From a virus, in IMG/VR virus record IMGVR_UViG_3300010370_000009, positions 1-36,201 of that record: a DNA stretch of 36,201 nucleotides. The stretch is one strand, 5' to 3'. The notes below the pieces were generated by a model. The model had not been told where the DNA came from, did no database searches, and saw only the letters and a program-made list of their open reading frames with translations. A program made the translations under genes and the position numbers. Shown here one piece after another: positions 2,782-33,040 of the stretch. How positions within the stretch are numbered: position 1 is the stretch's first letter; every line of letters starts with the position of its first letter.

Positions 2782-2918
2782 TCGTCGTCCTCGGTTTCGT
2801 CAACAACTTCTACAAATGGGGTTTGCGTTCGTTTGCGCGGAGCGCAGAACGGACACCTGCCCATGCTAGCAGGGTACTCGTCCCCGCAAACATAACAGTC
2901 TACCGTCCTACCAGACAT
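2778..2918 (-). CDS. 46-residue zinc-ribbon-like peptide
   Basis: A short frame from ATG 2918 to TGA 2780-2778. The protein begins MSGRTVDCYVCGDEYPASMG and continues with RCPFCAPRKR, giving two CxxC knuckles (Cys8/11 and Cys22/25) typical of a small rubredoxin-like zinc ribbon, followed by an acidic C-terminus (ETEDDE). It starts 3 bp after the small terminase stop and its end overlaps the next start as ATGA, a tight arrangement that supports it being a gene. Function unknown; such peptides in phages are often protein- or nucleic-acid-binding. A weak copy of the late CGAACG motif lies inside it (around 2811-2832). Confidence 0.7.
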   Translation of the reverse strand: MSGRTVDCYVCGDEYPASMGRCPFCAPRKRTQTPFVEVVDETEDDE

Positions 2919-3359: not shown

Positions 3360-3385
3360 ACTAATGGGTTGGGCGTTCGTTTTCG
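3360..3385 (-). promoter_or_regulatory. Late-motif copy upstream of small terminase
   Basis: On the minus strand this reads CGAAAACGAACG, a 7-base spacer (CCCAACC), CATTAGT, then directly the ATG of the small terminase at 3359. It matches the motif family also found at 33017-33040, 30565-30590, 28675-28701 and 25084-25104. Confidence 0.5.
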
Positions 3386-3396
3386 GAAACGAACGC
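3373..3396. promoter_or_regulatory. Perfect inverted repeat built from two divergent late motifs
   Basis: Arms GCGTTCGTTT and AAACGAACGC (10 bp each) flank a 4-base TCGG. The minus reading gives the motif in front of the small terminase. The plus reading gives GAAACGAACG, a 7-base spacer and AGATAATAG toward the gene at 3516. It may be a pair of divergent promoter recognition elements, or an operator or hairpin in the leader. Confidence 0.55.
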
Positions 3397-14226: not shown

Positions 14227-14692
14227 GTTCAACAAAGGCAGTTGGAACCAACGCTATAAGACGATGGGCGATACGGCCGAAACAGCGTTCACGACCATTC
14301 ACCCACACGCCCACCGTCTGGGAATCAACCGCCCAGACTTCAGCGTCGCGGCTTTGCCGCGTCTATTCAGACATACCCCAGACTTCCTATTGCCCAACGG
14401 GTTCTATGAGGTGATGGGTGTGTCCTCGCGCAACAAAGACGCAACCCTGAAACTCAAGTTTGAGAAACTAGATAGTCTCAAACAGTGGACCCTAATGGGC
14501 GACGGGTATCTATGGGTGTGGGATTCGTACCGCAAGCGATACTGGTGTGCATCCATAGATGAATGGGCGCATGCTTGCGCCCATCATGCCACCGTGTCGT
14601 TCTTTGATGACAACAACAAACCCTATTGGGACCTGCCAATCGGGCAGTTCCCATGCGAGCCAACCACGGGCGTGGACATCAGCAATGGCTAG
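14219..14692 (+). CDS. Possible endonuclease-fold protein
   Basis: ATG 14219 overlaps the previous gene. The 157-residue product contains HTPDFLLPNGFYEVMGVSSR, then KLKFEKLDSLKQW and LWVWDSYRKRYW. The layout P-D-(x8)-E-V-x-G, followed by a helix with Lys and a W-x-W-D-S strand, recalls the PD-(D/E)XK fold of phage endonucleases. However, the position expected to be Lys in E-x-K is Met, so the active site may be altered or the Lys supplied from the next helix. Position among RusA, primase and nuclease genes supports a DNA-processing role. The next gene starts inside its last codons. Confidence 0.45.
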   Translation: MTEFNKGSWNQRYKTMGDTAETAFTTIHPHAHRLGINRPDFSVAALPRLFRHTPDFLLPNGFYEVMGVSSRNKDATLKLKFEKLDSLKQWTLMGDGYLWVWDSYRKRYWCASIDEWAHACAHHATVSFFDDNNKPYWDLPIGQFPCEPTTGVDISNG

Positions 14693-15524
14693 GTCTAGAG
14701 AAGTCGGGTTGACAGCCGAGCAATGGGCACAACTAGTTGTGCCTGCGCCAGTGGGCAACGACCCAATAGAACAACTAATGGCGAGCATCAACGAGCAGAT
14801 GCCCGACGACTTCAGCATGCATATACGCGAAGCCGTCGGTAACGCTATTGCCAAGTTAGATGAACGAGAACAGTGGCTTATTGAAGCCGTGTATGTTCGC
14901 GGCATGTCCTATAAGGACATCAGCACAGTTCTCAACTACAAGTCCAAAGCATCCGCCCACAAGGCAGTGCAAGATGCAACTGATAAACTGAAAGACATCC
15001 TGTTACAAGACAAAGATATGGTAAGATTCCTACGGAGGAAAGGAAACGGAAACATGAGCAAACATCAATACTGGCAGGACGCATCGTGGGAAGCGGTCCG
15101 TTGCATTGACAGATGTTCCGTGCATGACGCGATGCCCGAAATGTTTGACATCCACTTCCACAACCTAGGGTTGTTGGTGCGGGCACACGGAGAAGAAGAA
15201 GCAATCAGCGATATCTGTTTCTCGGTTGGGTGTGAAGCATCACGAGTGCTGAACGAAATGGGCGCATGGGATATTGAACTCATGCAGGACACCCTGTGCA
15301 AGAAACAGCATGACTATGGGCATGAGAACATCAACGCCTTCGGCATCATCGGTATCGCTGTGCGCATTAGCGACAAGATTGCGCGCTACAAGAACCTTCA
15401 GGACCGCGCCAACTCTGTTGCCGACGAAACATTCTTGGACACACTGATGGACATGGTGGGTTACGCGGTGCTCGCACGCATGCTTGACAATGGCTCGTTC
15501 CATCTGGAACTGGAGCCGTTCTGA
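14685..15524 (+). CDS. Sigma region-4-like HTH fused to a DUF1599-like domain
   Basis: ATG 14685 overlaps the previous stop. The 280-residue frame has two parts. Residues ~58-108 (LDEREQWLIEAVYVRGMSYK, DISTVLNYKSKASAHKAVQD) look like a sigma factor region-4 helix-turn-helix. Residues ~124-280 contain LCKKQHDYGHENINAFGIIG, IAVRISDKIARYKNL and DTLMDMVGYAVLARML, the pattern of the DUF1599/nucleotide-modification-associated domain 1 family, related to MazG-type all-alpha enzymes. The linker region at 15034-15053 carries strong ribosome-binding sequence before an in-frame ATG at 15054, so a shorter 156-residue product containing only the second domain is likely. The HTH part is a candidate regulator of late promoters. 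Confidence 0.7.
   Translation: MARSREVGLTAEQWAQLVVPAPVGNDPIEQLMASINEQMPDDFSMHIREAVGNAIAKLDEREQWLIEAVYVRGMSYKDISTVLNYKSKASAHKAVQDATDKLKDILLQDKDMVRFLRRKGNGNMSKHQYWQDASWEAVRCIDRCSVHDAMPEMFDIHFHNLGLLVRAHGEEEAISDICFSVGCEASRVLNEMGAWDIELMQDTLCKKQHDYGHENINAFGIIGIAVRISDKIARYKNLQDRANSVADETFLDTLMDMVGYAVLARMLDNGSFHLELEPF
15034..15056 (+). promoter_or_regulatory. Internal ribosome binding site and in-frame start
   Basis: GGAGGAAAGGAAACGGAAAC immediately precedes ATG 15054, inside the fused sigma-like/DUF1599-like frame. Spacing from AAGGA to ATG is nine bases. It would allow separate synthesis of the 156-residue C-terminal protein (15054-15524). Confidence 0.55.
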
Positions 15525-16445: not shown

Positions 16446-16933
16446 GCTTTCGGGGGCTTGGACCCATAGGCAGGTTCCAGCAACTTGCCGAACACCACAT
16501 CAAACCAGTCCGCACTGTCCGCGACAGTGGGGCTGAGTTCAACATGAATCCACTTGCCATAGGGTGCTCCCGCGACCGTCGGCTTGGTGTAATCACGCCA
16601 AGACTGGCGGTCGCAACACCATCCACGCCCATGGGGGCGCGGGTAATAGTCAACAATCAACTCAACTCCCAGTGCACCGTTATTGCGCACAAGGAAGTCA
16701 ATCAAAGCCAACCCGTCCTCGCGGTTGCTGAACCCGAAGTCAATCGCTCTGCCCGTGCTGTGAACACTGGGTTTCTCTTTCCCGCGCATATTGCGAATCT
16801 GGAACGAACCCAGATTCTTGATGCGTCCCCCATTCAGGAACACAATCCAGTCAATGAACTTCTGTGTCCCCTTGCGCTTGCCTTTGGAGTCGCCGTCATA
16901 GCCCGTATAGGGTCGTTTGTTATTGAGGTTCAA
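16442..16933 (-). CDS. Endolysin, M15-like D-Ala-D-Ala metallopeptidase
   Basis: The protein carries SVHSTGRAIDFGF and KWIHVELSP, the H-x(3)-GRA-x-D...H-x-E layout of zinc peptidases of the M15/DD-carboxypeptidase type, that is His58, Asp65, His130 and Glu132 from the TTG start. It would cut peptide cross-links in peptidoglycan at lysis. I choose TTG 16933 because AAGGA lies nine bases upstream and the overlap with the giant gene is only 14 bp. The frame is open to GTG 16969, which has no ribosome site. There is no signal peptide, so export needs the holin. It is last in the late block, far from the holin (32399). Confidence 0.8.
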   Translation of the reverse strand: MNLNNKRPYTGYDGDSKGKRKGTQKFIDWIVFLNGGRIKNLGSFQIRNMRGKEKPSVHSTGRAIDFGFSNREDGLALIDFLVRNNGALGVELIVDYYPRPHGRGWCCDRQSWRDYTKPTVAGAPYGKWIHVELSPTVADSADWFDVVFGKLLEPAYGSKPPKA

Positions 16934-19900
16934 GATAACCCGTCCTTGTAAGATTAGCCAAATAGTCACGCAACGCGAACTGCCTGCGGGTCAGTTCGTT
17001 CAACTGTTCCTGTTCCGATATGCCACGGTACGGTACGCCCAGCGCGCTAGCGATGGACGAACCTTGCCGTTGCACATACGATTCCTTGCCACCCAACTGA
17101 GGTATGTAGCGTTGCAACTGTGCCAACGGTGGCAACAAGTTCGGCACCGCATACGCGGCCTTAGAAGATGTATAGGGCTGGCCTTGGGCGGTGAACCCAG
17201 ACTGACCGAACAGTGCGCCACCCAAGAACGCTGGGATGTCCAGCGGTCCGCGAACCATCTGAGGTTTGTCGCTGAACGGCACATCGGTCGCATACTGGCG
17301 TGAACCCAACAGTTCTGGAATCAACTTGATGGCTGGGTTGAACTGGCTGAGCAGACGCATCGGGTCTGCCATCATTGCCATCTGACCCCTCAGTTCCAAC
17401 TGGGGTAGGTCGGGGTTCAGCACGGCACCCTTGGAGAAACCAAGGGGGCCTTGCGCTTCAAGCCATGAAGGCAACACTAGGTTCTCGTCGGGTGGCAGGT
17501 TGCGCTGAACCGACTCGTATGCGCGATATAGCGACGGTCTGGCAACCTGATTCACCATCTGCAACGGGATGTTACGGCTAGCAAATATCCAGAAGGGAAT
17601 AAAGTTGCGCATCACTTCGTCAACCTTGCTCAGGTCCGTATAGTCAAAGTGGTAGCGCGCCACCTGAGCGGCGGCCGCGTCCATATCCAAACCGCGACGA
17701 AGCGAGGACAAAGCCAACGACATACGGGCGGCCAACTCCGCCCCCTCGTTCGCCTGTGTCCACGCGCGGAACGGCTTGGTTGATAGCAGTCGCCCACCCT
17801 TGCCAGTCAGAACTGGATACAGCAAATCGTCGGTTGTCTGGCCACCACCAGTGGCCAAATAGACGCGATAAGCCTGCTCGTATAGGTCGCGTTCGGCGGC
17901 GGGAACCGACTCCAACGCGGCGTTGATACCAAGACGATTAGCCTTGATGGCAAACGCTATTCCTTCCTTCGTTTCTGCGAGCGTCACGCCAGCAACAAAG
18001 TTGTTGAACGCGGCCGTATAAGAGTTACGGACGATAAATCCAGCCGTAAACATTGCGGAAATCTTGAAGAACCGCGTATAGGCGTTGTATATCTTGCGGA
18101 ACTTGCCCCACTCTGCTGGCGTTGACAGTGAACGAATCCTGTTGAATAGCATGTCTGCAATCTCGGGTGGCATCTGAACGCCGAGACTTTCAATCTCCGA
18201 CCATCCCCGTTCAATCTTGCTACGAAGAACATTGCCGAACTCGCCATTCATCACGCGGTCCATTTGTCCGACGGTGAACTCTCTAGCGGATTCGTAAATA
18301 GCGACCTGCGCCTCATAGCCCTTCAACTGGAGAATAACTTTCTCCAACGCTTCCTTCTGGGATGCGGGAAGTTCAAGCGCGCGCAGATTCTCTAATGCTT
18401 GGGTTGTGCTACGCAACCATTCGGCACTGACTTCACCAGCGGAACCCTTCGTTGGGGGTCTGCTGAGAAGCAGGTCTTGAATAGTCTTCAGGTCATCCTC
18501 ATACAGTTGACCGTATGTTGCTTTCCATTCACCCAACTCGCCACGCAAAGAACTGGCGGCATCCATAGATGCTTGCGCTGTACGCAGTTCATCGCCCTTC
18601 TTGGCCGCACCCTTGATAACAGGGTCGTTCTTCAACGCCGTATCAAGTTTGCGTTGCTCCGCCTGCAACTTACGCGCGGTAGACGCTGACTGTGCCTCGG
18701 CTTCAGCGCGGCTAACGGTCTTCGTACCACCCTTCAGTTGAGGAATATCAATAGCCTCTTGTGCTTTGCGTACCGTTTCGGCCGCAGTTGAAACACGCCC
18801 CTCTAGTTGACTGGCCGACGACCTGACACCACCAACCTGACGACCAACACTAGCGGCTTGTGCCTGTCGGCGGGCGACCTCCTCGGCCGCCGCCGCTAAT
18901 GCCTGCTCATTAGTGCCGAGCATTGAAGTGGCAATATCTCGGCTGGCTTGTGCGCCCATCAAAGCCCCAACAGGGTCAAATCCTGCGGTGCTAAGAACCG
19001 AGTCAGCAATATCCGCAGGCACTTCTTCCATGGTGCGACTGAGATGCCCAGCGTTCAACACCGTATCAAGGCCATAGCCGAAAGTGTTGAACTCACCGAT
19101 GTTCACACCAATGACATCCGAGAACCCAGAACCCGAGGAGCCAATGAACCCGATGGCATCGTACAGCATGTCGTTGCCATCAACATAAACATCAACAGGG
19201 AACGACGGGTCCATGCTCTGCTTGGACAACCAAAGGTCCAACATGGAGCCAACAGCCTCCATGTCATCATCAAATAGCGACGAGAACTCGGCCGCGCTCA
19301 TGTTGCTGAAATCACGGCGCGCCATCTTGTCCACGCGAATAAGGATTCCAGCCAACTCTGGTTCTGCCTCCACAAAGGTGGGGTCCAATGCGTTGGCCCC
19401 ACCACGCTGAGAGCGGATAACGGTATCCCACATCTCACCGAAATATTCGGCGGTCTGATTGTCACCCAACTTGTTGATGGCTCCACCGATTCCGTAACCC
19501 AAACCATCAATGAAATCCAAATAGTCTTCGCCATTCTCCCACGGCTTGAGAATACGACCAGTCATACCACCCTGAACATCGGGAGCGTAAGCCATCACAA
19601 AGTCATTAGGGTCAGCACCTTCGGGCAGATGCTGATACACGGGTACGCCCTCGGCGTATCCCGAGTCCAGTTTCTCAACATCAGCCTTGTGAACGAAGTA
19701 AACACCATCAGGGAAGTCTTCGCTTGACCGTTCAACAACAGTATTCAGATTCTCAATCTGCTTATCCAACGCCCGCAACTCTGCGGTCGTTGACTCAACG
19801 GCACCACTAGCCGCGGTCACAGCCCTAGTGGCTTTGCCTCGCGGGCCAACGGACCTTTGCAAGCGTGCACGCCTAGTTTCCAACGCCTTCAGTTTGCTAG

Positions 19901-22037
19901 CGGTACGAGACTCCGACTTGGCAAGAATCTGGGCGGCCATCTCCCGAGGGTCGCTCGGCCGATTCTTCATCTTCGGGAACATGCGCTGATGCGCTTCCTC
20001 CAAATACATGGTGGCCGCAAGTTCCAACTGGTCGTTCTCTGACAACGCCTTGTCAATACCCTCCAGACGGGCACGATACGGGGCGGTGACAGCATCAAAC
20101 GCTTCCTTGATTTCTCCACCACGAGCAGTAGCCAAAGCATCAGCCGCATTGAAATCCTCCAACGCTTTAGCAATGATTACGGTCAACTCCTGAAGTTGCT
20201 GTTCGTTGAAGATTGACTGCTGGGCCTTATCAATAAGAACCTTGCTGGCAACATTCTGGGCGGTACCCAGAATATTCGCCGCCTTATTCGCTGTCTTATT
20301 CAGGTTTCTCCCAATAGACATTACGCCTTCGCTGATGGTATTCAGACTTCTATTCAGCGTCGCAACAACCCTGCCATCAGGTATCATTTCCTTTGTTACG
20401 CCACGAACAACATCAGGCCCATAGTCAAACAGGCGGTCGGTGAAACCGACGCGCTTCACCAAGTTGCCAACCGAGTTGATATACGAGTTCATATAGGTGG
20501 CGGCATCATCCTCAAACCACTTGAACCCCAACTCGTCCATAGAAATATCGTTGATTTCCTTGATTGTTGCAGTACCGTCACCCGTGTCGGTGACCAGTTT
20601 CCTACCCAACCATTCCTTGCCTGTCTCCAGCGTTCGTCCACGCAGAATCTGAGGCCCACGAATAAACTCATCTGGGGTCAAATCCACCATCTGCTTCATA
20701 TAGGACTGCCAGCGAGTATTTGCCCACCGCTTGGAGGACAGATACTCGCGCGCTTCCTTGGACAGACTGTGGTTCACATAGTTCTGGCGAACATTTATCT
20801 TATAGGCGCGGACACCACGGCGGCTGGAGAACTCGTCAACAACAGAGTTGCCTGCTTCCCTGACATCCACATAGAACTTGCGGACTTTACCAATCAAATC
20901 TTCGGAACCAGACGGAGCCTGCAAAGTGAGGTCTTCCAAATAGTGTGCAATCTTCTCGCCAGTGCGCGCTTCCCAATCGCGTGCTTCGCTGGCAAGTTGC
21001 TGATGTTGCGCCGCAAGTTTATTCACAAACGACTTGCCTAAAGATTTGCCTCGCTGAGCAGACGAATAACCACCCAAACGGTTAGTCATCTCTTTCAGCG
21101 TCAAACTCTCAACCGAATCCAAACCTGCCGTCTTGCGCCACAACTCGGGAACGAGTTTGGCTTCACGCATCGCCTTGCCCATAAGGGCGTTCTGTATGGG
21201 ACGAAGCATCGGGAAGTCTCCGATACGCGCCCGCAACAATGACGCATTAGAACCAATAACCTCAGCAAACTTCTCGCTGGCGGCACGAGTCCTCGTGCCT
21301 TCCTTACCAATAACCTGCCCAGCCTTGCTACCAAATGACCGCGTAACACCCTTGGGCACATTCAGAACTTGACGCTCAACATCGTCCAAAGCCCATTCGC
21401 CGTAACGAAGAATGGAACCGTCAGCAATCTTCGCGGCCAAACTAGGAGCCTTGGCAATGTTCGCTTCTTCGGCCGCCTTGGTGGCCAATGCGGCGCGACC
21501 CTTCCAACCCGTGTATCCGCTAGCACCAAAGGTCATATAGGTCAATGGGTCGGCGGCGATGTCCACGGCAATACCAACGGGAGCATCAATCCACTTGATG
21601 CCTGTCTTGGAAATCAGCGTGGACGGATAGAAGTTCTCGTCAAATGGCTGGGTGACAAGTTCCTTCAGCGACGCACCCCCACCTGTCAACAAATCTGCGC
21701 CTTCCTTGGCGACAGATGCGACAGTACGCACGGGTAGACCGCTGATATAACCGATGTTCTTTGCGGCCCCACTAAGGCCGCTAAGAATCCATCCTCCGAT
21801 TCCACGCGAATAGCGTGAACTGCCCTTGCCAGAAATCTCTGCCGCGGCTTGACGCAAAGCATCAGTGTATTTGCCGCTAGAAACCAGTGCAGGACTGCCC
21901 GCCAACCGTGTGTTGGCGGTACGCAAAGAAGTGCCTAGTTCAACTTGCTTGGCAAGAATCGCTGGGTTGACTGAACCGCCAGCAGAACCTGCCGTGCTTT
22001 GTCCAGCCTTGCGTAGGATGTCCTCAAATGCTCCCAT
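16920..22037 (-). CDS. Giant internal virion/ejection-type protein (1,705 residues)
   Basis: The largest gene, about 14% of the genome. The N-terminal half is rich in Ala/Gly and helices (SRYSRGIGGWILSGLSGAAK, APVGIAVDIAADPLTYMTFG). Several coiled-coil-rich stretches occupy the middle (around residues 600-740 and 1080-1250). The C-terminal ~450 residues contain a hydrophobic segment (FFKISAMFTAGFIVRNSYTA) and VARYHFDYTDLSKVDEVMRN followed by FIPFWIFASRNIPLQM, a block I recall from very large structural or polyvalent proteins of other phages. With the three preceding mid-sized genes it looks like a set of internal core/ejection proteins as in podoviruses, though no transglycosylase or polymerase motif was found. 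Start ATG 22037 has AAGG upstream. Confidence 0.7.
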   Translation of the reverse strand: MGAFEDILRKAGQSTAGSAGGSVNPAILAKQVELGTSLRTANTRLAGSPALVSSGKYTDALRQAAAEISGKGSSRYSRGIGGWILSGLSGAAKNIGYISGLPVRTVASVAKEGADLLTGGGASLKELVTQPFDENFYPSTLISKTGIKWIDAPVGIAVDIAADPLTYMTFGASGYTGWKGRAALATKAAEEANIAKAPSLAAKIADGSILRYGEWALDDVERQVLNVPKGVTRSFGSKAGQVIGKEGTRTRAASEKFAEVIGSNASLLRARIGDFPMLRPIQNALMGKAMREAKLVPELWRKTAGLDSVESLTLKEMTNRLGGYSSAQRGKSLGKSFVNKLAAQHQQLASEARDWEARTGEKIAHYLEDLTLQAPSGSEDLIGKVRKFYVDVREAGNSVVDEFSSRRGVRAYKINVRQNYVNHSLSKEAREYLSSKRWANTRWQSYMKQMVDLTPDEFIRGPQILRGRTLETGKEWLGRKLVTDTGDGTATIKEINDISMDELGFKWFEDDAATYMNSYINSVGNLVKRVGFTDRLFDYGPDVVRGVTKEMIPDGRVVATLNRSLNTISEGVMSIGRNLNKTANKAANILGTAQNVASKVLIDKAQQSIFNEQQLQELTVIIAKALEDFNAADALATARGGEIKEAFDAVTAPYRARLEGIDKALSENDQLELAATMYLEEAHQRMFPKMKNRPSDPREMAAQILAKSESRTASKLKALETRRARLQRSVGPRGKATRAVTAASGAVESTTAELRALDKQIENLNTVVERSSEDFPDGVYFVHKADVEKLDSGYAEGVPVYQHLPEGADPNDFVMAYAPDVQGGMTGRILKPWENGEDYLDFIDGLGYGIGGAINKLGDNQTAEYFGEMWDTVIRSQRGGANALDPTFVEAEPELAGILIRVDKMARRDFSNMSAAEFSSLFDDDMEAVGSMLDLWLSKQSMDPSFPVDVYVDGNDMLYDAIGFIGSSGSGFSDVIGVNIGEFNTFGYGLDTVLNAGHLSRTMEEVPADIADSVLSTAGFDPVGALMGAQASRDIATSMLGTNEQALAAAAEEVARRQAQAASVGRQVGGVRSSASQLEGRVSTAAETVRKAQEAIDIPQLKGGTKTVSRAEAEAQSASTARKLQAEQRKLDTALKNDPVIKGAAKKGDELRTAQASMDAASSLRGELGEWKATYGQLYEDDLKTIQDLLLSRPPTKGSAGEVSAEWLRSTTQALENLRALELPASQKEALEKVILQLKGYEAQVAIYESAREFTVGQMDRVMNGEFGNVLRSKIERGWSEIESLGVQMPPEIADMLFNRIRSLSTPAEWGKFRKIYNAYTRFFKISAMFTAGFIVRNSYTAAFNNFVAGVTLAETKEGIAFAIKANRLGINAALESVPAAERDLYEQAYRVYLATGGGQTTDDLLYPVLTGKGGRLLSTKPFRAWTQANEGAELAARMSLALSSLRRGLDMDAAAAQVARYHFDYTDLSKVDEVMRNFIPFWIFASRNIPLQMVNQVARPSLYRAYESVQRNLPPDENLVLPSWLEAQGPLGFSKGAVLNPDLPQLELRGQMAMMADPMRLLSQFNPAIKLIPELLGSRQYATDVPFSDKPQMVRGPLDIPAFLGGALFGQSGFTAQGQPYTSSKAAYAVPNLLPPLAQLQRYIPQLGGKESYVQRQGSSIASALGVPYRGISEQEQLNELTRRQFALRDYLANLTRTGYLEPQ

Positions 22038-25083: not shown

Positions 25084-25104
25084 CTCTAATAGCCTTATCG
25101 TTCG
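25084..25104 (-). promoter_or_regulatory. Late-motif copy upstream of the internal-protein genes
   Basis: On the minus strand: CGAACG, ATAAGGC (7 bases), TATTAGAG, then the ATG at 25083. It overlaps the last codons of the preceding tail gene. It differs from the 30565-30590 copy at only two positions over CGAACG-N7-TAT. Confidence 0.5.
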
Positions 25105-25469
25105 CTGGTGGGTGGCAGAATATGGTAATATCCTGCCACATTGTGGGTAACGCGGTCGTTTCCGTTCTTGTCAAAGAAATGCAAATGCAAGGTGGTTTCG
25201 GTAACGGTTTCAATGTGATATGGACCCATCTTGGTCACATCCCCAGCATCCTCCTCGGTTACCAGCACGGCCGCTGGGACAAACCCAGCGTTGTGCGTAA
25301 CCGTCAAATCACCATTAGCGTCGGTGGTGCCCGAGAAAGACCCCCATACACCGATGTGTCCACGCAGATACTCGGTCAAATCAGCAAAGATAGCGCGGAC
25401 AGCAAGACCATCACTGCCCCTCAGGGAGTTGGTCAAGGGGTTGGTCCAAGTGCGTTTCACAATAGGCAT
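25095..25469 (-). CDS. Small tail/structural protein
   Basis: A 124-residue protein: MPIVKRTWTNPLTNSLRGSD, GHIGVWGSFSGTTDANGDLT, VTHNAGFVPAAVLVTEEDAG and a C-terminal HNVAGYYHILPP. The HNAGFVPAAV phrase and beta-rich pattern are typical of small phage tail or decoration domains, where Gly-Phe-Val-Pro leads into a beta-sandwich. The start overlaps the stop of the 551-residue tail gene (TGATG), so they are coupled. Likely part of the tail or its fibre-attachment site; the exact role is unknown. Confidence 0.65.
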   Translation of the reverse strand: MPIVKRTWTNPLTNSLRGSDGLAVRAIFADLTEYLRGHIGVWGSFSGTTDANGDLTVTHNAGFVPAAVLVTEEDAGDVTKMGPYHIETVTETTLHLHFFDKNGNDRVTHNVAGYYHILPPTSER

Positions 25470-27124
25470 CAGACCTTCACCCCCCGCGGGTTATACTTAT
25501 AGGCGATTGAGTTCACACACCACGGCAGTGGGGTGCTGGACGAAATCTTCAGTTGAACAGATTTGGCTAGACCCAAAGAATGAGCCTTGACTCCAGTAGA
25601 ACCCAAATCAGGCTCGTTCCAGTTGCTATAATCCAAACCAGTTGTGTCAGCCGCTTCGCTAGATACGGTGTAGGACTTCTGAACATCAACAGCATTCCAA
25701 TCGTGATAAACGGAAACATCAAGATTCACAGCGGAAGTTTCACGACGCAACACAAACTCGGGTCTGCGCCACAACTTCTTAGTTACATAGTTGCCAGCAT
25801 CCTGCCAAGGCATCACATAGTATGAGTTATACGAACTGGGAGTACCTGTGAAGTTATCGTTGTGCGTATTCTTCACATCAAAGTTGAAGGCATACGGCTG
25901 ATATGGGTGAACAGCAACGAAACTTGTATTGCCATTATTGTCGCCGTAAACAATCGGAGAAACGAAACCATACCCATCCGCGGTACGATAAACAGTCCAT
26001 GCTCCATTGCCTACGGTTTCATCCCAAACAAACGAAACTGTGGCGCGATTAGCGCGACTGATACCACCATAACTACGCTCATAGAAATCATAGGCAATAC
26101 CAGACTGGTCATACTGGTATGCTCCACCAGTAGCAGACGAACCAGCAGGCACACTGAGGAAGACCTTATTGTTGGCGTAACCAACACTGATGGAACCGAG
26201 GGCTGTTTCCGAAACTCCAGCATCATAAATCATTGGGCGAACATTCTTGAAGATATCCCGAATCGTCTTCCCATCATAGAAGAACATGCCGTCAGGATAC
26301 GAGAAGAAATACACGCCACGCTCAGTAGCAACAAGACCCTTAGAGTTGGGTGTACCAACAGACCTAGTTATTTCAACAACCTGAAATGTATCTTCGCTAT
26401 AACCATAAATGGCGAAGACAGCACGATTCTTGAACACCAGCAAATGTCCACCAAACGGCACAATAGCAGTAATGGTGCCACCACCGCCAACAATATCAAT
26501 ATAGTCCAGTTCACGCCACGACTCAGGGAACAAAGGATGGCTGAAACGCACGCGATTGGGATGATGCGTTGAACCCTCCATAATATCGGCCACCCATATC
26601 CGCTCGTTATGAACAGCAATATGCTCACACTTCGGCATATGAGTACCATTCGGCGTAGCCAAATCATTCTGCCAAGCACCAGTACCGCTAGCAGTCAGAG
26701 TTGTGAGAGTGGTGCCATCCCACTTGCGCGGCACATACCCGTGACCCAACGACATATATAAATAACTGGAGGCTTCCGTTGTCCACGAACCAAACTCAGC
26801 ACCATAAGTAGCATCACTAGTGACACCCAAATCGGTGAAGTTGCCAGTCGTACTGTGGAACACCTTGTTATCTGTGGCCAACATCAACTTCTTGCCCTGC
26901 TCACCATCCCAAGGATACAAACGGTGAGGAGTGAACGAACCAGCAGACAAAGAACCAATAGCGGATGCGTTGCGTTGCACGCAACCCAGCCGCCGTTGGA
27001 AACCACCCCTAGGGTTGATGTCAACATTCAACATATCGCTGGATTGATTGCTGGCCAACTGGAACACATTGGCCTCTAGGTTCAACCCGCCCGTGAAATC
27101 ATCTGCTTGGACAACGCGAATCAT
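25469..27124 (-). CDS. Tail tubular/stabilisation protein (T7 gp12 / P22 gp10-like)
   Basis: A 551-residue protein beginning MIRVVQADDFTGGLNLEANV and DMLNVDINPRGGFQRRLGCV. This opening (GGLN...L...N...D..NVD..P.GG...R.G) is the hallmark of nozzle or stabilisation proteins of short-tailed phages that I know as tail tubular protein B / gp10-like. The rest is repetitive beta sequence (blades with W/Y-rich strands such as RIWVADIMEGSTHHPNRVRF), consistent with a beta-propeller. It follows the adaptor gene with an ATGA overlap, the classical adaptor-nozzle order of a podovirus tail. Confidence 0.8.
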   Translation of the reverse strand: MIRVVQADDFTGGLNLEANVFQLASNQSSDMLNVDINPRGGFQRRLGCVQRNASAIGSLSAGSFTPHRLYPWDGEQGKKLMLATDNKVFHSTTGNFTDLGVTSDATYGAEFGSWTTEASSYLYMSLGHGYVPRKWDGTTLTTLTASGTGAWQNDLATPNGTHMPKCEHIAVHNERIWVADIMEGSTHHPNRVRFSHPLFPESWRELDYIDIVGGGGTITAIVPFGGHLLVFKNRAVFAIYGYSEDTFQVVEITRSVGTPNSKGLVATERGVYFFSYPDGMFFYDGKTIRDIFKNVRPMIYDAGVSETALGSISVGYANNKVFLSVPAGSSATGGAYQYDQSGIAYDFYERSYGGISRANRATVSFVWDETVGNGAWTVYRTADGYGFVSPIVYGDNNGNTSFVAVHPYQPYAFNFDVKNTHNDNFTGTPSSYNSYYVMPWQDAGNYVTKKLWRRPEFVLRRETSAVNLDVSVYHDWNAVDVQKSYTVSSEAADTTGLDYSNWNEPDLGSTGVKAHSLGLAKSVQLKISSSTPLPWCVNSIAYKYNPRGVKV

Positions 27125-27807
27125 ACCGCACTATCCCAATCCGTACCCTTCCAGCGTCGGATGGCTTTGCCACCAGCAAACACCATGGGCGAGTACGACT
27201 CGGGGCGCATCAAGTCACGACGCGCCAAACCAATAGCATCAGCAAACGACCGCTCATATTCCTGAGCAATACTCATTTCCTCCTGCGACTGGTAGACACG
27301 CGAAGTCACATAGTAAACCAACGGCAAATCAAACGCATCGGGACCATCAGGATGGCTGGCATTCGTCACCCAATCCTCAGGATGGCGATATGCGCGCACC
27401 GTCAACTCGTATGCTTCCGTTGGCTTGGGGAACAAATGAATCTGGTCGTTCCAGAACGAGAAGAACATAGGACGACCCTGCGGTGTTTCAACAGCAAGGA
27501 ACTGGGCTTCGGCCTCATCGTAATCAATATACGACAACCTCAAAGAGTTAGGCTTGACAACGCTGATAACCTCGCGGATGTCATCGTTGGAGAAATCGTT
27601 GACCGTATAAGCCTGCTGACCAATAGCGCAAGTCAGCGTAAATGAAACCTCAAGGAACGGCCAACGCCGTTCCAAATCAATAATACGGTTATAGCCGTCA
27701 CGCAAATACAGGGTCAGCAAACTATCGGGAATATCATCCGAATCCATTTCGGTAATATCCCGAACAGCACCGAGAATATCAGCCTTCGTCAACCTCGTTT
27801 GCGCCAT
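27121..27807 (-). CDS. Head-to-tail adaptor (gatekeeper-like) protein
   Basis: A 228-residue protein: LTKADILGAVRDITEMDSDD, LLTLYLRDGYNRIIDLERRW, then PFLE and the beta region QQAYTVNDFSNDDIREVISV. A helical start plus RRWPF...T is characteristic of adaptor proteins (T7 gp11 / P22 gp4-like) which join portal and tail nozzle. A later segment (FDLPLVYYVTSRVYQSQEEM) fits the second helical bundle. It overlaps the upstream small zinc protein by 29 bp and the nozzle gene by 4 bp. Confidence 0.75.
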   Translation of the reverse strand: MAQTRLTKADILGAVRDITEMDSDDIPDSLLTLYLRDGYNRIIDLERRWPFLEVSFTLTCAIGQQAYTVNDFSNDDIREVISVVKPNSLRLSYIDYDEAEAQFLAVETPQGRPMFFSFWNDQIHLFPKPTEAYELTVRAYRHPEDWVTNASHPDGPDAFDLPLVYYVTSRVYQSQEEMSIAQEYERSFADAIGLARRDLMRPESYSPMVFAGGKAIRRWKGTDWDSAV

Positions 27808-28042
27808 CAGTAATCTCTACCTTCTTGTTTGCCTTGGACCGCAAATGGCCCATGCAGAACTCGGTGCCTTTGGCGCGACTACCCTCACAGGTGTCATCGT
27901 TGCCAACACACTTATTTCCGCGTCCAACATATGGTGCGGATGCCGCGGCAATCCGCGCATCCGCCACCATGTTCAATCGCATATCTGTTGCTGGCCGACC
28001 ATACAAACTATGGGCGGGGACAGCACCCTTGGGAACACTCAT
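27779..28042 (-). CDS. Small CCCH zinc-binding-type virion-locus protein
   Basis: An 87-residue protein with the block GRGNKCVGNDDTCEGSRAKG and TEFCMGHLRS. Cys-x7-Cys...Cys-x2-His could bind zinc. I recall very similar short proteins (C-GN-DTC-G-RA-GT-FC-GHLR) in many freshwater phages, always near capsid and tail genes, with unknown function. The ATG overlaps the stop of the basic 111-residue gene as TAATG, and its 3' end overlaps the adaptor gene. The location argues for an assembly or connector role. Confidence 0.65.
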   Translation of the reverse strand: MSVPKGAVPAHSLYGRPATDMRLNMVADARIAAASAPYVGRGNKCVGNDDTCEGSRAKGTEFCMGHLRSKANKKVEITDGANEVDEG

Positions 28043-28377
28043 TACAGCATTCCACGCCCATACTTGGTGGCACCAGTGCGCTTACGCTTGGGACCGCTTG
28101 GAACGCGCGGCATCTTGCCAATAGCACTGGGCTTATAGGCTCCCTGCTTGCCAGTAGCCCAAGTCTTTCCGCCCTTAGTGGGTGGCTTGCGGATGCCCAC
28201 CTTAGCGGGCAAGGTCGTCATAGAGCCAGAACCAGCAGGCGGCATCGGCATCTTGCCGAAACCAACATTGATACCCTTGGCTTGTTCAACCGCGCCTTTC
28301 TTGGTGGGCGGCTTCTTGCCACCACCAATAGGCGGACGAGGAGTACGATTATCTGCTTTGATACGACGACTAGCCAT
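28042..28377 (-). CDS. Basic Pro/Gly/Lys-rich protein
   Basis: From ATG 28377 (TGATG overlap with the previous gene; a GTG three bases upstream is also possible) the product is 111 residues. It is low-complexity: ASRRIKADNRTPRPPIGGGK, KPPTKKGAVEQAKG, GSMTTLPAKVGIRKPPTKGG, KRKRTGATKYGRGML. A net strong positive charge and no hydrophobic core indicate an unstructured nucleic-acid-binding or capsid-internal protein. Together with the next upstream gene it forms a pair of basic proteins immediately after the capsid gene; no family is known to me. Confidence 0.6.
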   Translation of the reverse strand: MASRRIKADNRTPRPPIGGGKKPPTKKGAVEQAKGINVGFGKMPMPPAGSGSMTTLPAKVGIRKPPTKGGKTWATGKQGAYKPSAIGKMPRVPSGPKRKRTGATKYGRGML

Positions 28378-28643
28378 CACTTACCCCACATCGGCTTCTT
28401 CTTAGCCTTGATGCGCACTTCACCGCGACGCTTCGGACCTTCCGAAGAACTCTTAGCGGTGACAGGGGGCTTGACGCGCTTCTTCGGACCCTCGGAACCC
28501 AGACCTCCGACCTTCTGGAAATCCACCTTGCTCAGAGCGGTGCGAACGCCTTGGTCCAAGTAACCCTTAGTCTTGGAACCAACCTTGGTGCCGCCTGCGG
28601 GCGGCTTCTTTGAGGGGGCACTAGCCTTCTTCTTAGCGGCCAT
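28377..28643 (-). CDS. Basic Lys-rich protein downstream of the capsid gene
   Basis: An 88-residue protein, about one quarter Lys/Arg: MAAKKKASAPSKKPPAGGTK, then VDFQKVGGLGSEGPKKRVKP and a C-terminal KAKKKPMWGK. AGGAG precedes ATG 28643 at normal spacing. It lies after the capsid terminator and a late-motif copy, so it opens a new transcript segment. The composition recalls histone-H1-like tails; a role in DNA condensation within the head is a guess. Confidence 0.6.
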   Translation of the reverse strand: MAAKKKASAPSKKPPAGGTKVGSKTKGYLDQGVRTALSKVDFQKVGGLGSEGPKKRVKPPVTAKSSSEGPKRRGEVRIKAKKKPMWGK

Positions 28644-28674
28644 AACTTCTCCTAATCAATAAGCCCAATAGGGT

Positions 28675-28701
28675 CTATACAATAGGGGGTGTCGTTCTTT
28701 C
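28675..28701 (-). promoter_or_regulatory. Divergent copy of the late motif after the capsid terminator
   Basis: On the minus strand: GAAAGAACG, ACACCCCC (8 bases), TATTGTATAG. It is a variant of GAAACGAACG-N7-TAT placed between the capsid terminator and the basic-protein gene at 28643, where a new promoter would be needed. Confidence 0.4.
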
Positions 28702-28717
28702 TGCCCCCAAATAGGAA

Positions 28718-28751
28718 GAACCCCCACCGCGGATTGGCGCGGTGAGGGTTC
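28718..28751 (-). terminator. Rho-independent-type terminator after the major capsid gene
   Basis: A 14-base arm pairs with its partner with one mismatch around a 6-base loop (28718-28731 with 28738-28751). On the minus strand it is followed by TTCCTATTT, a T-rich tail. It lies 17 bp beyond the capsid stop codon. It probably lowers expression of downstream genes relative to the capsid. Confidence 0.8.
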
Positions 28752-28767
28752 CCAATCCTAGGGGTTA

Positions 28768-29709
28768 TCAGGCGGTCTTAGCCGTCAACTTGCCCTGACG
28801 CTTGGCGTTACGGACCGTGAGGTTGCCGTAGCACATAATCAGCGCGTAGCGGGCATCCATGTTCTCGGGACGGACGAACTCCGTCTGCGAGAACCACTTG
28901 CCCGAGTGACCCACGAGGGTGAGGTACTTGCTGTTCAGGAAGTAAACCACACCAGCGGTGCAGTGCACATCGTAGGTCACGGGAGCGGCCTTGAACAGCA
29001 GGTTCTGGAAGCCCGCGTCAGCGGTCTTCGTGTCGGTGTACCGCAACTGCGGCTGGAGAAGCGACTCGTACTTCTCGTACAGGGTCTGGGTCGTCAGCAC
29101 CATGTCGGGGTGGTCGTTACCGACCGACACCGAGTTGTATGCCGTTGCCAACTGGGCGAGAGTAAGAGCACCAGCGGTGTTCTCCTCGTACGACTGCCAG
29201 AACTCGTTGCCAGCAGTGGCGCGGTTGATGCCACCGACCGTTCCCGAAGCCTCAACGAGGTTTCCGAGACCGTTCCAGTTCTTGCCCGAGTTACCCGTGC
29301 CGTCACCGAAGAACATCTGGTTGAAGCCTTCCTTCATGGATTCCTCAGCCTGCATAATCTTAGCCTCAAGCAGGTTGATGATAGCGGCTTCGCCGTTGTT
29401 CTTGGCTTCTTCAATACCCGAGATAGCGATGCTGGCGGCGTACTGCTTCCAGTCGTATTCGGCGGCCGAGATGCCTTCCTGAGCGGTCAGCGACAGAGTG
29501 TCGTAGCCCGAGTACGAAGCAACAGTGCTGTTGGTTCCGTAAATCAGCGGCTCCACAATCTTGGTGCCGCCATCCACCATGCGGATACGACCCTTGTCCA
29601 TGAGGAAGTAGGTCAGCGGACGAGCCGTGAAGATGTTGTCAGTGAGTTGGTCCCGATAGTTGGCAAGCGTAGTTGCCAACAGGGAGTCAAATGATGCGTT
29701 TCCTGCCAT
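28768..29709 (-). CDS. Major capsid protein
   Basis: A 313-residue protein, MAGNASFDSLLATTLANYRD with an N-arm-like helix. Then come IRMVDGGTKIVEPLIYGTNS, YDTLSLTAQEGISAAEYDWK, a long helix (EAAIINLLEAKIMQAEESMK), and the C-terminal strand RYALIMCYGNLTVRNAKRQG. The helix (spine), P-domain and beta-strand order are consistent with an HK97-fold capsid protein of the Phage_capsid_2/P22-like type. Position, downstream of portal and scaffold and ended by a strong terminator, agrees. GGAG precedes ATG 29709 by seven bases. There is no protease gene or obvious cleaved propeptide, so a separate scaffold is used. Confidence 0.88.
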   Translation of the reverse strand: MAGNASFDSLLATTLANYRDQLTDNIFTARPLTYFLMDKGRIRMVDGGTKIVEPLIYGTNSTVASYSGYDTLSLTAQEGISAAEYDWKQYAASIAISGIEEAKNNGEAAIINLLEAKIMQAEESMKEGFNQMFFGDGTGNSGKNWNGLGNLVEASGTVGGINRATAGNEFWQSYEENTAGALTLAQLATAYNSVSVGNDHPDMVLTTQTLYEKYESLLQPQLRYTDTKTADAGFQNLLFKAAPVTYDVHCTAGVVYFLNSKYLTLVGHSGKWFSQTEFVRPENMDARYALIMCYGNLTVRNAKRQGKLTAKTA

Positions 29710-29746
29710 TAGATTACTCCAATACTAGAGAGGTTGATAGATGAGT

Positions 29747-30529
29747 TCACATCCCCATTTGTCGTTTGGCCGCCGCCCAAGCGTCCTGAACGGATGTGAT
29801 TCGTCCCACGGGTTCAACTCCAGCACCATTAGCGGATGCGCCACCTGCCACAAATGCGGCGTTGCGCTTAGCATCCACAATCTGATTGTTCTGGTCAGCC
29901 ATCACCTGCTGAGCCTGACGATAAGTGGCCACTTCTTTCGCCAACTTGTCGTAAGACAACTGCTTGTAAACTGCTTCCAGATTGTCAGTGCCAACCTGAA
30001 GCGCAGTTGTGATAACCTGAACAGGGTCAAAGTCAGGGTACTGCTGTTGAAGCCGAGAAACTTCACGCTCCAACTCTTGCTGTGCTTGGGCAGTCTCAAA
30101 GGATTGAATCTTCTGATTCATTTCCCAAATCTGCCGCTCAAGCGGGTCCAGAAACTCTGGCTCTGCGGGAGGCAACTGCTGGTTGGCGAGGTTCGCTCCA
30201 TAGTGCCGTGACAGAACATCCAAAGTCGCAACGGGGTCACGCTCAAGTGCCTCAGCAATAGTCATTGCATGTTGTAGGCTTTCACGCTGGGATGCTAGTT
30301 CCTGCGTCTTGCGGGTATAATCCGCCTGACGCTGGTAACCAGACAAGGCTTCCTTTAGAGGAACATCCAGTTCTTCCCCATCAACCTTCAGTTTCACATA
30401 TTTGTCAGCGAAACTATCAGTGTCAATGTATTCGTAACTGGGTGCCTCGGCAGGGGCCGATGTCCCAACTTCCGTTCCTGCGGATTGTCCCGCTTGGGGG
30501 TCCGAAGTTACAGCATTCTCGTTATCCAC
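29747..30529 (-). CDS. Capsid scaffolding protein
   Basis: A 260-residue protein starting at GTG 30529 (GGAG five bases upstream). It has a disordered acidic N-terminus, then FADKYVKLKVDGEELDVPLK, EALSGYQRQADYTRKTQELA and a long coiled-coil (SQRESLQHAMTIAEALERD; IWEMNQKIQSFETAQAQQEL). This layout, VDGEE-x-DVPL...GYQRQADYTRK followed by helices, is common to scaffolding proteins encoded just before phage major capsid genes. It would template procapsid assembly and leave before packaging. Confidence 0.85.
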   Translation of the reverse strand: MDNENAVTSDPQAGQSAGTEVGTSAPAEAPSYEYIDTDSFADKYVKLKVDGEELDVPLKEALSGYQRQADYTRKTQELASQRESLQHAMTIAEALERDPVATLDVLSRHYGANLANQQLPPAEPEFLDPLERQIWEMNQKIQSFETAQAQQELEREVSRLQQQYPDFDPVQVITTALQVGTDNLEAVYKQLSYDKLAKEVATYRQAQQVMADQNNQIVDAKRNAAFVAGGASANGAGVEPVGRITSVQDAWAAAKRQMGM

Positions 30530-30564
30530 GATATCTCCAATATCTAGAGTCCTAAATGGTTGCT

Positions 30565-30590
30565 CTATATATAGCCCTAGCGTTCGTTTC
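30565..30590 (-). promoter_or_regulatory. Late-motif copy upstream of scaffold and capsid
   Basis: On the minus strand: GAAACGAACG, CTAGGGC (7 bases), TATATATAG. It lies in the 59-bp gap between portal and scaffold, 36 bp before the scaffold GTG, with the CGAACG overlapping the end of the portal stop region. Confidence 0.55.
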
Positions 30591-32415
30591 AGAGTCCCAT
30601 GGGGGGCATCGGCGGGGGTGCGCCACCGCCCATTTCAGGCGGTGCGCCACCCCCAGCCTGCGCCAACAGAGCCATCAACACCTCGGGTGGAATGTCTGCT
30701 GGCAATGCGCCACCCTGAGGAGCCATAGGAGGCATCGGCTCCATGGGAGGCGGAGGACCTGCTGGGAGTTCGGGGGGCATGGCCTGCTCCTGCGGAGCGG
30801 GCGGAGGTTCTGGGGCGAGGACAAATGCCTCGGGGTTCTTGATGCCGAAACCGCTCTGGAGCACATAGGCGGCAAACTTGGCCATGTCAATAACTCCAGC
30901 CTGAGCGAAGGGCATCAATGCCTGAACCATCTCGGCTGTCTGGGCACGCTGGAAAGACTCGTTATGCGGACGGGTAGAACCGCCAACCACATCAAAGTCA
31001 AACTCGCCCGCAATATAATCGCGGTCGTAAGTAATCCAAATAGGTTCGCCGTCCTTGCCGACAATACGGGCAGTCATGTCATTGGTCATAAACTGCTGTG
31101 TCAGTTTCAGTAGACGCTTGCCTACCTCGCCAATAGCCTGCTCAATAGTGGCAAGTTTGTCGGCTGTACGCGCGTTGGCGGCATCCTGCGCCAATCCAAC
31201 TTCTGTCGCTGTGCGACGAATCTCAGATACGGAACCACGCATAAACTCGGAAACACCCGAGATGCTGTTGATATCCTGCTCAATCAGCGATGACTGATTG
31301 TAGAACTCGGGTGGGTTGATAAGCGCAGGGAATGGGGCGACAACATCCCCCAAGGGGAAGTCGCCCACAACAGGGACCATAACATTATCATCGTCAGATT
31401 CCATGGCTGAACGGCCATTGGAATCCAACGCCGCTTCACGGTACAAATATTTACGAGCATACCGTTTACGATGATTCATCATCTGGGTTCTGGTTGCGTT
31501 CAGTTCACGCTGAAGCGGCTCAATAGCCTCTAGGTCGCCAAGCGGATAGAAGAAATCAGGAATCTCATAGTTGCGAATCATTACGAAAGGATGTCCGAAA
31601 GCATACGGCATCTTCTGTGGTTTGATTAGGAAACCATCACCAGACTCGGCAAACACGGATACAGTTTGATTTCGCAAATCATAGAACTCGTAGATGTCTG
31701 CGTAACCCTCGTCCTTATCGTTTATCTTACGATGGGCGGGTTCTTCCGTGCTATAGCGGGAGAAACTGATTGCGCCGACATCTTCACGGACTGCGCGGTT
31801 ATACCGCTTGTCCGTCCGAACATCACGAATAGGGCGACGAACGCGATGCGAAATCCATTTCGCGTCGTTCAGAGTCGTGGCATCTGGGTCAACAAATACA
31901 TCAAACGGAGACACACGCTCCACAAACGGAGCGTCCTCTAGAACATTATAGTTGGTCTGCGTATAGTTCTCGGACATGGGGTCGTTGACATCCTCGTCCA
32001 ACCCAATCCGTTCTTCCTCAACATACTTATAGCCAACTTTCAGCCAGCCATGACCAACGATAAGAAAGTCCTTGACTGCCATACGGAACTGGTCTTTGAT
32101 GTTCCGATGTCGCCACCAGTAGTTCACTACAGCCTCAGCAATAATAGCATTAGGTGCGTTCTCGGGGCTGATGGCGTTGACAGTAATCTTCGGATAGTTC
32201 ACCGAGATTGACGGGTAAATCACATTGATTGTGGAGAACGCCATGTTGACGAGGATGCGGTCCTCGTCGGTGAAATACTCGTAATGACGGCCACGATACA
32301 GGTCAACTAGCCGTCGCCAAGTTTCGTCGTATGACTCCTCTTTGCGCCACTTGCGAGAAGAAGAAACCTTCTTCCGATAGCGGGCAAGAATGTCACTGTT
32401 AGAGGGACGAGCCAT
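30589..32415 (-). CDS. Portal protein
   Basis: A 608-residue protein: SNSDILARYRKKVSSSRKWR, DETWRRLVDLYRGRHYEYFT, INVIYPSISVNYPKITVNAI, MAVKDFLIVGHGWLKVGYKY. A long-helix region (SLIEQDINSISGVSEFMRGS; TADKLATIEQAIGEVGKRLL) follows. These are standard features of phage portal proteins (stem and wing, then crown helices). The C-terminal ~90 residues are very Pro/Met-rich (PPEPPPAPQEQAMPPELPAG), unusual but seen in other aquatic phages. GGAAGG precedes ATG 32415. It forms the dodecameric DNA gate at one vertex and binds the large terminase and the adaptor. Confidence 0.9.
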   Translation of the reverse strand: MARPSNSDILARYRKKVSSSRKWRKEESYDETWRRLVDLYRGRHYEYFTDEDRILVNMAFSTINVIYPSISVNYPKITVNAISPENAPNAIIAEAVVNYWWRHRNIKDQFRMAVKDFLIVGHGWLKVGYKYVEEERIGLDEDVNDPMSENYTQTNYNVLEDAPFVERVSPFDVFVDPDATTLNDAKWISHRVRRPIRDVRTDKRYNRAVREDVGAISFSRYSTEEPAHRKINDKDEGYADIYEFYDLRNQTVSVFAESGDGFLIKPQKMPYAFGHPFVMIRNYEIPDFFYPLGDLEAIEPLQRELNATRTQMMNHRKRYARKYLYREAALDSNGRSAMESDDDNVMVPVVGDFPLGDVVAPFPALINPPEFYNQSSLIEQDINSISGVSEFMRGSVSEIRRTATEVGLAQDAANARTADKLATIEQAIGEVGKRLLKLTQQFMTNDMTARIVGKDGEPIWITYDRDYIAGEFDFDVVGGSTRPHNESFQRAQTAEMVQALMPFAQAGVIDMAKFAAYVLQSGFGIKNPEAFVLAPEPPPAPQEQAMPPELPAGPPPPMEPMPPMAPQGGALPADIPPEVLMALLAQAGGGAPPEMGGGAPPPMPPMGL

Positions 32416-32590
32416 TATTTACCTTCCATGCCTGAGCGGTGCGGGCCGCCCAGTTCCATACGGCAATCAGCCCTGCGATTGCCGCCGCCTTGAAGAACGA
32501 CACATCAGCAACTGCAGCCGTCAACGGGGCGGCCGTAGCCCCCGCAATGAAAGTAGCAACAGCCCGCTGGAACGCTTCCTTGTATGTCAT
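32399..32590 (-). CDS. Holin (r1t-like)
   Basis: I choose ATG 32590, which overlaps the previous stop (ATGA), rather than the upstream in-frame ATG at 32620. The 63-residue protein begins MTYKEAFQRAVATFIAGATA, then APLTAAVADVSFFKAAAIAG and LIAVWNWAARTAQAW: a short amphipathic start and two membrane segments with D-V-S-F-F-K between. This matches the general form of r1t-type holins of actinophages (R-A...T...D...K-A-x-x-x-A). Its 17-bp overlap with the portal gene and its location among small lysis-like genes support this. It would permeabilise the inner membrane to release the endolysin encoded at 16442. Confidence 0.75.
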   Translation of the reverse strand: MTYKEAFQRAVATFIAGATAAPLTAAVADVSFFKAAAIAGLIAVWNWAARTAQAWKVNNGSSL

Positions 32591-32787
32591 CGTGATTCCC
32601 CCTTGTTGTCCATGTGCCATTCAATATGACCGTGTAAACGGTCATCAACTTTATCAATCTTGCGTTCTATGGTTCTCAGAACTTTCATGTTCTGACCATG
32701 CTGTTCTGTGTTCCGCTTGTCAAACCTGTGAAGCCCCCACATCAGAGGTCCACCAATAAGGGCAACGACAATAGGAACCCACCACAT
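32587..32787 (-). CDS. Small membrane protein with coiled-coil tail (lysis cassette)
   Basis: I use ATG 32787, one base after the previous stop. The frame is open upstream to 33006 but that part overlaps the zinc-ribbon gene entirely. The 66-residue protein starts MWWVPIVVALIGGPLMWGLH, one transmembrane helix, then a charged helical region (MKVLRTIERKIDKVDDRLHG) with HIEWHMDNKG. Membrane anchor plus short coiled-coil is typical of holin partners, antiholins or DUF2746-like proteins next to holin genes in actinophages. It is followed directly by the holin gene with an ATGA overlap. Confidence 0.65.
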   Translation of the reverse strand: MWWVPIVVALIGGPLMWGLHRFDKRNTEQHGQNMKVLRTIERKIDKVDDRLHGHIEWHMDNKGESR

Positions 32788-32788
32788 A

Positions 32789-33016
32789 TTACACCCAACG
32801 ATTCCCAACAGGCTCAGCCTTGATGCCCGCGGCCGAGGCTTGGGCTTCCTGTTCACGCTGGCGTTCCCGAATAGTCGGACCATGAAAGTCCTGCTTGCCG
32901 TGGGTGAAACCCAAACGAATACCCTTGAGATGGCAGGCGAAGCAGACCGCGCCACGGCGCGGCAGAACATCAAACTGAAAGACTTTGGCACATTCGGTGC
33001 AAGCAATACTACCCAT
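32789..33016 (-). CDS. Small zinc-ribbon protein with FHGPTIRE motif
   Basis: A 75-residue protein: MGSIACTECAKVFQFDVLPR, AVCFACHLKGIRLGFTHGKQ, DFHGPTIRERQREQEAQASA. The two CxxC knuckles suggest a zinc ribbon, and the following FHGPTIRERQ...A is a phrase I recognise from a frequent small protein of actinobacterial and other aquatic phages, function unknown. Its ATG sits directly after the late motif TATAAGT (33017-33023) without a Shine-Dalgarno. It is the first gene of the lysis/portal segment. It may act in packaging, being placed between the large terminase and portal. Confidence 0.7.
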   Translation of the reverse strand: MGSIACTECAKVFQFDVLPRRGAVCFACHLKGIRLGFTHGKQDFHGPTIRERQREQEAQASAAGIKAEPVGNRWV

Positions 33017-33040
33017 ACTTATAGGCTCATCGTTCGTTTC
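33017..33040 (-). promoter_or_regulatory. Late-motif copy upstream of the lysis/portal genes
   Basis: On the minus strand: GAAACGAACG, ATGAGCC (7 bases), TATAAGT, then immediately the ATG at 33016. It lies in the 30-bp gap after the large terminase. The distance from CGAACG to the ATG is the same (14 bases) as in front of the small terminase. Confidence 0.55.

Follow-up and report, generated by a model that had tools for sequence, protein, structure and literature searches.

What does a short motif that recurs in the gaps between the late genes of an uncultured phage do, and what reads it? This question is raised by the IMG/VR virus record IMGVR_UViG_3300010370_000009, which was analysed over its whole length of 36,201 bases (hereafter the window) and is bounded by a 123-base direct repeat at both ends. 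Its early genes lie on the plus strand and encode an AAA protein, a PD-(D/E)XK nuclease, a DnaB-like helicase, a primase, RusA and a protein combining sigma region 4 with DUF1599, and the late genes lie on the minus strand, from the terminase small subunit (~3359) across the record ends to a 1705-amino-acid virion protein (16920). A first-pass annotation of this DNA had described CGAACG-N7-TAT (N7 standing for seven bases) in the late gaps as a candidate family of late promoters specific to the phage. Judged from the DNA sequence, the motif very probably is a family of late promoters, and the relatives in which it recurs belong to a large, abundant and uncultured family of aquatic phages.

Within the window, CGAACG-N7-TAT occurs exactly three times, at the three places originally reported and always on the minus strand (25104-25089, 30586-30571 and 33036-33021), against a mean of 0.17 in dinucleotide shuffles, none of which reached three in 100 trials. 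A position matrix built from relatives only ranked five window sites highest, at 25103, 33035, 30585, 2830 and 3378, again all on the minus strand. The third-best and fifth-best of these scored 21.6 and 12.8, whereas Markov-shuffled genomes gave at most 12.9 and 10.4, so that the comparison with shuffled genomes for which the first-pass annotation had called leaves the shuffles far below the window in counts and in scores alike. The copy described at 3380-3360 proved a good member of the family: it is the 3378 site, reads GAACG-N7-CAT TAGT ATG and stands before the small-terminase gene, which begins at ATG 3359 and not at the upstream start, 3446, of the open reading frame (ORF). The copy at 28701-28675 is a plausible looser member, with a spacing of N8 instead of N7. 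Four of the five best matrix sites lie before functional clusters as had been claimed, but directly before the portal, the capsid and the 551-amino-acid gene there is no copy of their own.

The motif is reproduced in relatives. A portal query of IMG/VR yielded 80 loci, confirmed relatives number at least 593, and strands and start codons were later counted over ~150 related loci, some of them fetched after the first set. In the 80 loci all 68 occurrences of GAACG-N7-TAT fall on the late strand, and the opposite strand has none. Over the ~150 loci, the motif ended 2-6 nt before the ATG at 81 of 2340 late-strand ORF starts, where shuffles predict 1.6, and at 1 of 1316 opposite-strand starts, where 1.2 are expected. 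The sites directly precede the zinc-finger/portal unit, the scaffold unit, the post-capsid unit, the 144-amino-acid gene and the terminase small subunit, and in MW202803, which is more distantly related, GGAAACG boxes stand in the late gaps, immediately upstream of start codons. The core is GAACG, 7 nt and TAT(A/T), and the conserved part is [A/G]GAAC[G/A] plus TAT(A/T). The leading C and the preceding GAAA, which had been counted as parts of the motif, are not conserved in relatives, with GAAACGAACG found four times on the late strand and once on the opposite strand. Could chance or coding composition produce such a pattern? CGAACG alone is at chance level in the window (26 occurrences, 19 expected), and some matches in relatives are coding, within a zinc-finger ORF. 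For the full motif, however, the shuffles, the opposite strand and the later-fetched loci exclude chance, and we regard this explanation as having a negligible probability. A scan of the collection with a 14-base motif pattern was discarded, its matches being mostly at chance level and in unrelated contigs.

The first-pass annotation missed that the motif abuts start codons, an arrangement that would imply leaderless or nearly leaderless messages. Counted from the G of GAAC, the ATG follows after 19 or 20 nt at 57 of 85 sites, and the same 19 or 20 nt separate this base from a conserved leader element ahead of the scaffold gene at 42 of 45; loci fetched later show similar spacings with some spread. 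A Shine-Dalgarno 4-mer accompanies 9 of the 85 motif-coupled starts, compared with 141 of 267 control long ORFs. The small zinc-finger protein is conserved from the first codons of its gene onwards (CxxC from about codon 5), so the ATG of this gene is used. Since the box keeps the same distance from two unrelated elements, a start codon without a Shine-Dalgarno sequence and the scaffold leader, the RNA 5' end is probably located there. It is thus likely that RNAs, presumably made late in infection, have their first base no more than a few nucleotides from the start codon. For the terminase small subunit, the zinc-finger/portal unit and the 25083 gene the RNA would start at the start codon or within a few nucleotides of it, and for the scaffold/capsid unit it would instead start at or near the leader element. 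This element, AGAGCAACC-N-GGACTC with a spacer of mostly 5-9, is near-invariant before the scaffold gene in most relatives, portals having diverged to ~50-60% identity. It could fold into a small hairpin, but its two blocks are nearly invariant and show no compensatory changes, so RNA structure is not demonstrated; an Rfam search of the window gave no match.

Strand specificity and the tie to start codons lacking a Shine-Dalgarno sequence would also suit a signal that acts in the RNA, either because cleavage of long late transcripts at the motif leaves leaderless ends or because the motif helps ribosomes to start without a Shine-Dalgarno sequence. We consider this unlikely. The scaffold gene and the gene at 28643 have Shine-Dalgarno sequences of their own, with the motif ~55 nt ahead of their start codons; hence the motif is more than a translation signal. 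Moreover, the genes upstream of the small-terminase site run the opposite way, with no sigma-70-like promoter on the late strand seen there, and one related genome (G004) carries a divergent copy of the motif on the opposite strand.

If the motif is a promoter, to which class does it belong? Its spacing had been judged unfit for a normal -35/-10 pair, and indeed there is no sigma-A -10 in any usable register: of the registers that would place the RNA start no further downstream than the ATG, none has TANNNT in more than 6 of 95 sites. In its late half the window contains fewer sigma-70-like sites than chance predicts (7 against 14.6), and the companion proposal that early genes use TTGACA is weakly supported, the early half holding 11 promoter-like matches where chance gives 7.5 +/- 2.5. 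What is well supported is a family of promoter-like late sites, specific to the phage, that occupies one strand and the starts of late units, lacks sigma-70 spacing and recurs in more than 100 related loci. Its two boxes are one helical turn apart. A contiguous promoter of ~20 bp with such one-turn geometry and start-proximal TATA-like DNA resembles the promoters of phage polymerases, among them the late promoters of AR9, AACA-N6-TA/G with the last base as the start, which are read by the non-virion RNA polymerase of that phage (PMC5312081). In both systems a box with AAC stands roughly one helical turn away from a TA-rich box near the start, and both form a phage-specific late class; here, however, the spacing is ~N7 and the RNA start probably lies some nucleotides further on. 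AR9 encodes multisubunit RNA polymerases, whereas no such genes were found among the window proteins searched against Pfam and PHROGs, which included part of the small ORFs. Nor did PF00940 (RNA_pol) match any of 18 records (control genomes likewise gave none), the window has no unassigned early ORF of T7-polymerase size, and the profile of the 1705-amino-acid virion protein found no polymerase, nor any other convincing match, in the PDB. A cryptic or single-subunit phage polymerase (T7-, N4- or AR9-like) as the reader is judged unlikely, and since no phage RNA polymerase was found, it is probably the host enzyme that transcribes these genes, redirected by a phage factor.

The best candidate for this factor is the protein encoded at 14685. 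The first-pass annotation had suspected it of being sigma-like; it does carry a sigma region-4 domain, but region 4 only, fused to DUF1599, and its reading of the box would require a non-canonical geometry. A profile search against the PDB retrieved region 4 of FliA, SigF and extracytoplasmic function (ECF) sigma factors (E 3e-7), and in Pfam Sigma70_r4 matched 10 of 11 members, the window protein exceeding the r4_2 cut-off. In the AlphaFold2 model the predicted local distance difference test score is ~90 across the helical C-terminal part and low elsewhere. Over 65 residues the model superimposes on the -35-binding domain of Mycobacterium tuberculosis SigL with a deviation of 1.1 A, with weak Foldseek E-values, as expected of a small helical domain; as modelled, the protein has an ECF-like fold. 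The fusion ORF is found in the window, G001 and G006, and a separate gene of ~110 amino acids lies beside a DUF1599 gene at the same place in other genomes, G003-G005 and G007-G010 among them. Besides the window, each of the first 10 genomes inspected has the sigma-4 gene, as do 13 of 14 later ones (partial contigs included), the sole exception being G022, whose 30.2-kb contig may be partial. The ~110-amino-acid proteins carry region 4 without region 2 and so are not full sigma factors. A conserved early protein, 9295, was considered as a sigma-2-like partner and rejected, its profile matching nothing relevant in the PDB. Sigma-like proteins with region 4 only occur among predicted structures of viral proteins, and we found no account in the literature of their role.

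Box type and helix type change together among the relatives. The GAACG box (window and G001-G004) goes with a YxSK-type helix, GGGAAC[A/G] (class B, nine genomes, of which G022 gave no sigma-4 match) with I(K/R)AKSHAWRK, and GTAACG (eleven genomes, classes C and D) with LGV-SKPHAWRL; a fourth box variant, GTAGCG, appears in a few fragments. A class C capsid is 94% identical to that of the window, even though the promoters of class C carry GTAACG. In known ECF factors, SigW contacts the -35 box through K170, T171 and R175, and region 4 of E. coli SigE reads GGAACTT (PMC6713349). In the phage helices the lysine, a DNA-contact residue, is invariant; class B retains the whole K-S/T-x3-R pattern of these SigW contacts, the other classes part of it. 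As independent proof of recognition, however, this covariation is weakened, since it largely follows lineage.

In the mechanism that we favour, [A/G]GAAC[G/A] would lie ~20 bp and TAT(A/T) ~7 bp upstream of the RNA start, and the region-4 protein, contacting GAAC, would be the phage factor that redirects host RNA polymerase. Several findings weigh against it. GGAAC at about -20 is ~15 bp too close for a sigma-4 domain held on the beta flap at -35, and a domain reading GGAAC from that position should start RNA ~33 nt downstream, inside the genes. No partner protein with sigma region 2 was found, and the helix residues of the GAACG class, including those of the window's own protein, deviate from K-S/T-x3-R. 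Furthermore, classes C and D form one clade in the terminase, portal, helicase and primase trees, so that the box/helix correlation rests on few independent changes, and because a TAT pattern served to pick the 85 sites, the prominence of the TAT box in them is in part a product of the selection. Either the protein acts from a different position, or the 5' ends lie elsewhere, or something else reads the box.

Alternatively, GGAAC may be a true ECF-like -35, with the RNA starting ~33 nt downstream in the first codons and the overlap with the ATG incidental. The boxes are of the GGAAC type in class B, with GAACG and GTAACG in the other classes, GGAAC is the core of the SigE -35 (PMC6713349), and the phage encodes a sigma-4 domain of that fold. 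We nevertheless give this alternative little credence: the 16-17 spacing is absent, no shared -10-like element was found downstream of GGAAC or after the ATG, the conserved first codons of the zinc-finger gene would call for another transcript, and the constant offset from the ATG and the missing Shine-Dalgarno sequences would be left unexplained. Because of the misfit between -20 and -35, we place much less confidence in the mechanism than in the promoter claim. From its sequence features we lean slightly towards the 14685 protein as the reader of the box on host polymerase, and we hold with moderate confidence the explanation as a whole, namely late promoters, near-leaderless starts, a redirected host polymerase and a sigma-4 reader. 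In a more specific and rather doubtful version, the stand-alone sigma-4 protein would be the sole phage specificity factor, reading GGAAC at -20 one turn from the TATA-like box, so that host polymerase starts late mRNAs at the AUG, with box and helix co-diverging between lineages. To our knowledge, such a sigma-4-only mode of initiation has no precedent.

How does this compare with other known systems? In phiEco32 a sigma factor without region 4 serves promoters that have no -35 box and only one element, tAATGTAtA, 6-8 bp upstream of the start, and the late promoters of 7-11 have normal spacing, GTAAtg-16-aCTA (PMC8948821). Both share with the proposed mechanism a host polymerase, a phage-encoded specificity factor and promoters before late genes, but neither has one-turn spacing, and the phage studied here reverses phiEco32 in having region 4 without region 2. 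T4 gp33 is likewise a sigma-4 stand-in of ~110 amino acids made as a separate phage protein. No sequence similarity between gp33 and sigma can be discerned; gp33 does not read DNA and acts together with gp55, its partner in the split sigma of T4, at a TATA box of 8 bp (PMC2988020), whereas here the motif is different, the sigma-4 sequence is genuine with its DNA-contact residue kept, and no gp55-like sigma-2 protein was found. The RinA/Ltr proteins of Gram-positive phages are also small activators of packaging and structural genes, but phi13 Ltr needs repeats at -107 to -42 plus a normal sigma-A TATA box (PMC13123087), unlike the single box at ~-20 without a sigma-A -10 seen here. ECF factors come close in the box itself, with -35 elements such as GGAACTT for SigE and TGAAAC for SigW (PMC6713349), and in the fold of the candidate reader; they differ in placing the box at -35 and not at ~-20.

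Table 1. Positions of the promoter-like sites, the candidate reader and associated elements in the window
Feature	Position	Strand	Details
Late promoter-like site, small zinc-finger gene and portal	33021..33036	-	GAACG 33035-33031, TAT 33023-33021, ATG 33016, offset 19 nt
Late promoter-like site, scaffold/capsid	30571..30586	-	GAACG 30585-30581, TAT 30573-30571; leader AGAGCAACC...GGACTC from 30566, offset 19 nt
Conserved scaffold-leader element AGAGCAACC-N5-GGACTCT	30546..30566	-	At putative RNA 5' end; Shine-Dalgarno GGAG and the GTG start codon (30529) lie downstream
Looser late site past capsid terminator	28682..28697	-	GAACG-N8-TAT, 54 nt upstream of ATG 28643
Late promoter-like site, 144-amino-acid gene 25083-24649	25089..25104	-	GAACG 25103-25099, TAT 25091-25089, ATG 25083, offset 20 nt
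Candidate reader, sigma region-4 domain (~residues 45-107) fused to DUF1599 (nucleotide modification-associated)	14685..15524	+	Profile and fold
22-bp inverted repeat CGTTCGTTTTCGGAAACGAACG	3374..3395	both	Divergent late/basic-gene junction; one GAACG box per strand
Late promoter-like site, terminase small subunit	3364..3379	-	GAACG 3378-3374, CAT 3366-3364, ATG 3359, offset 19 nt
Weaker match GAACG-N7-CAT	2816..2830	-	Within 46-amino-acid zinc-finger ORF 2918-2778

Some neighbouring features deserve mention (Table 1). The 2830 match may be a coding coincidence or due to chance; the 46-amino-acid zinc-finger ORF around it (2918-2778, minus strand), between the terminase small subunit and gene 2781, has likely homologues (CPxCGEE) in relatives. 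At the divergent junction, the plus-strand copy within the CGTTCGTTTTCGGAAACGAACG repeat is the weaker GAACG-N7-AGATAATAG, and G004 also has an inverted repeat at its divergent junction, with motif copies facing both directions. Adjoining the terminase small subunit, a G-tract/TATAAT-like/G-tract stretch, GGGGGGAGATAATAGAGGGGGG (~3395-3421), is kept in the same gap of G001, G007 and G010 and is possibly a packaging site, a G-quadruplex or a divergent promoter. The 1705-amino-acid protein at the end of the late region (16920-22037) ranges from 1340 to 2178 amino acids in aligned relatives, with the C-terminal part best kept. A host search with portal and capsid against 84,980 genomes gave no usable host. 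Its only match was a relative with 58% capsid identity on an 18-kb contig (L334) binned in a Euryarchaeota metagenome-assembled genome, on which a scaffold-leader element of the window's kind was not found; the archaeal label is probably a binning artefact, the contig being a mis-binned phage.

Late control in these uncultured phages appears to rest on a promoter outside the standard sigma geometry, with near-leaderless messages. In addition, a region-4-only protein is here paired with a concrete candidate DNA target, several natural variants of the box and a recognition code that can be tested.

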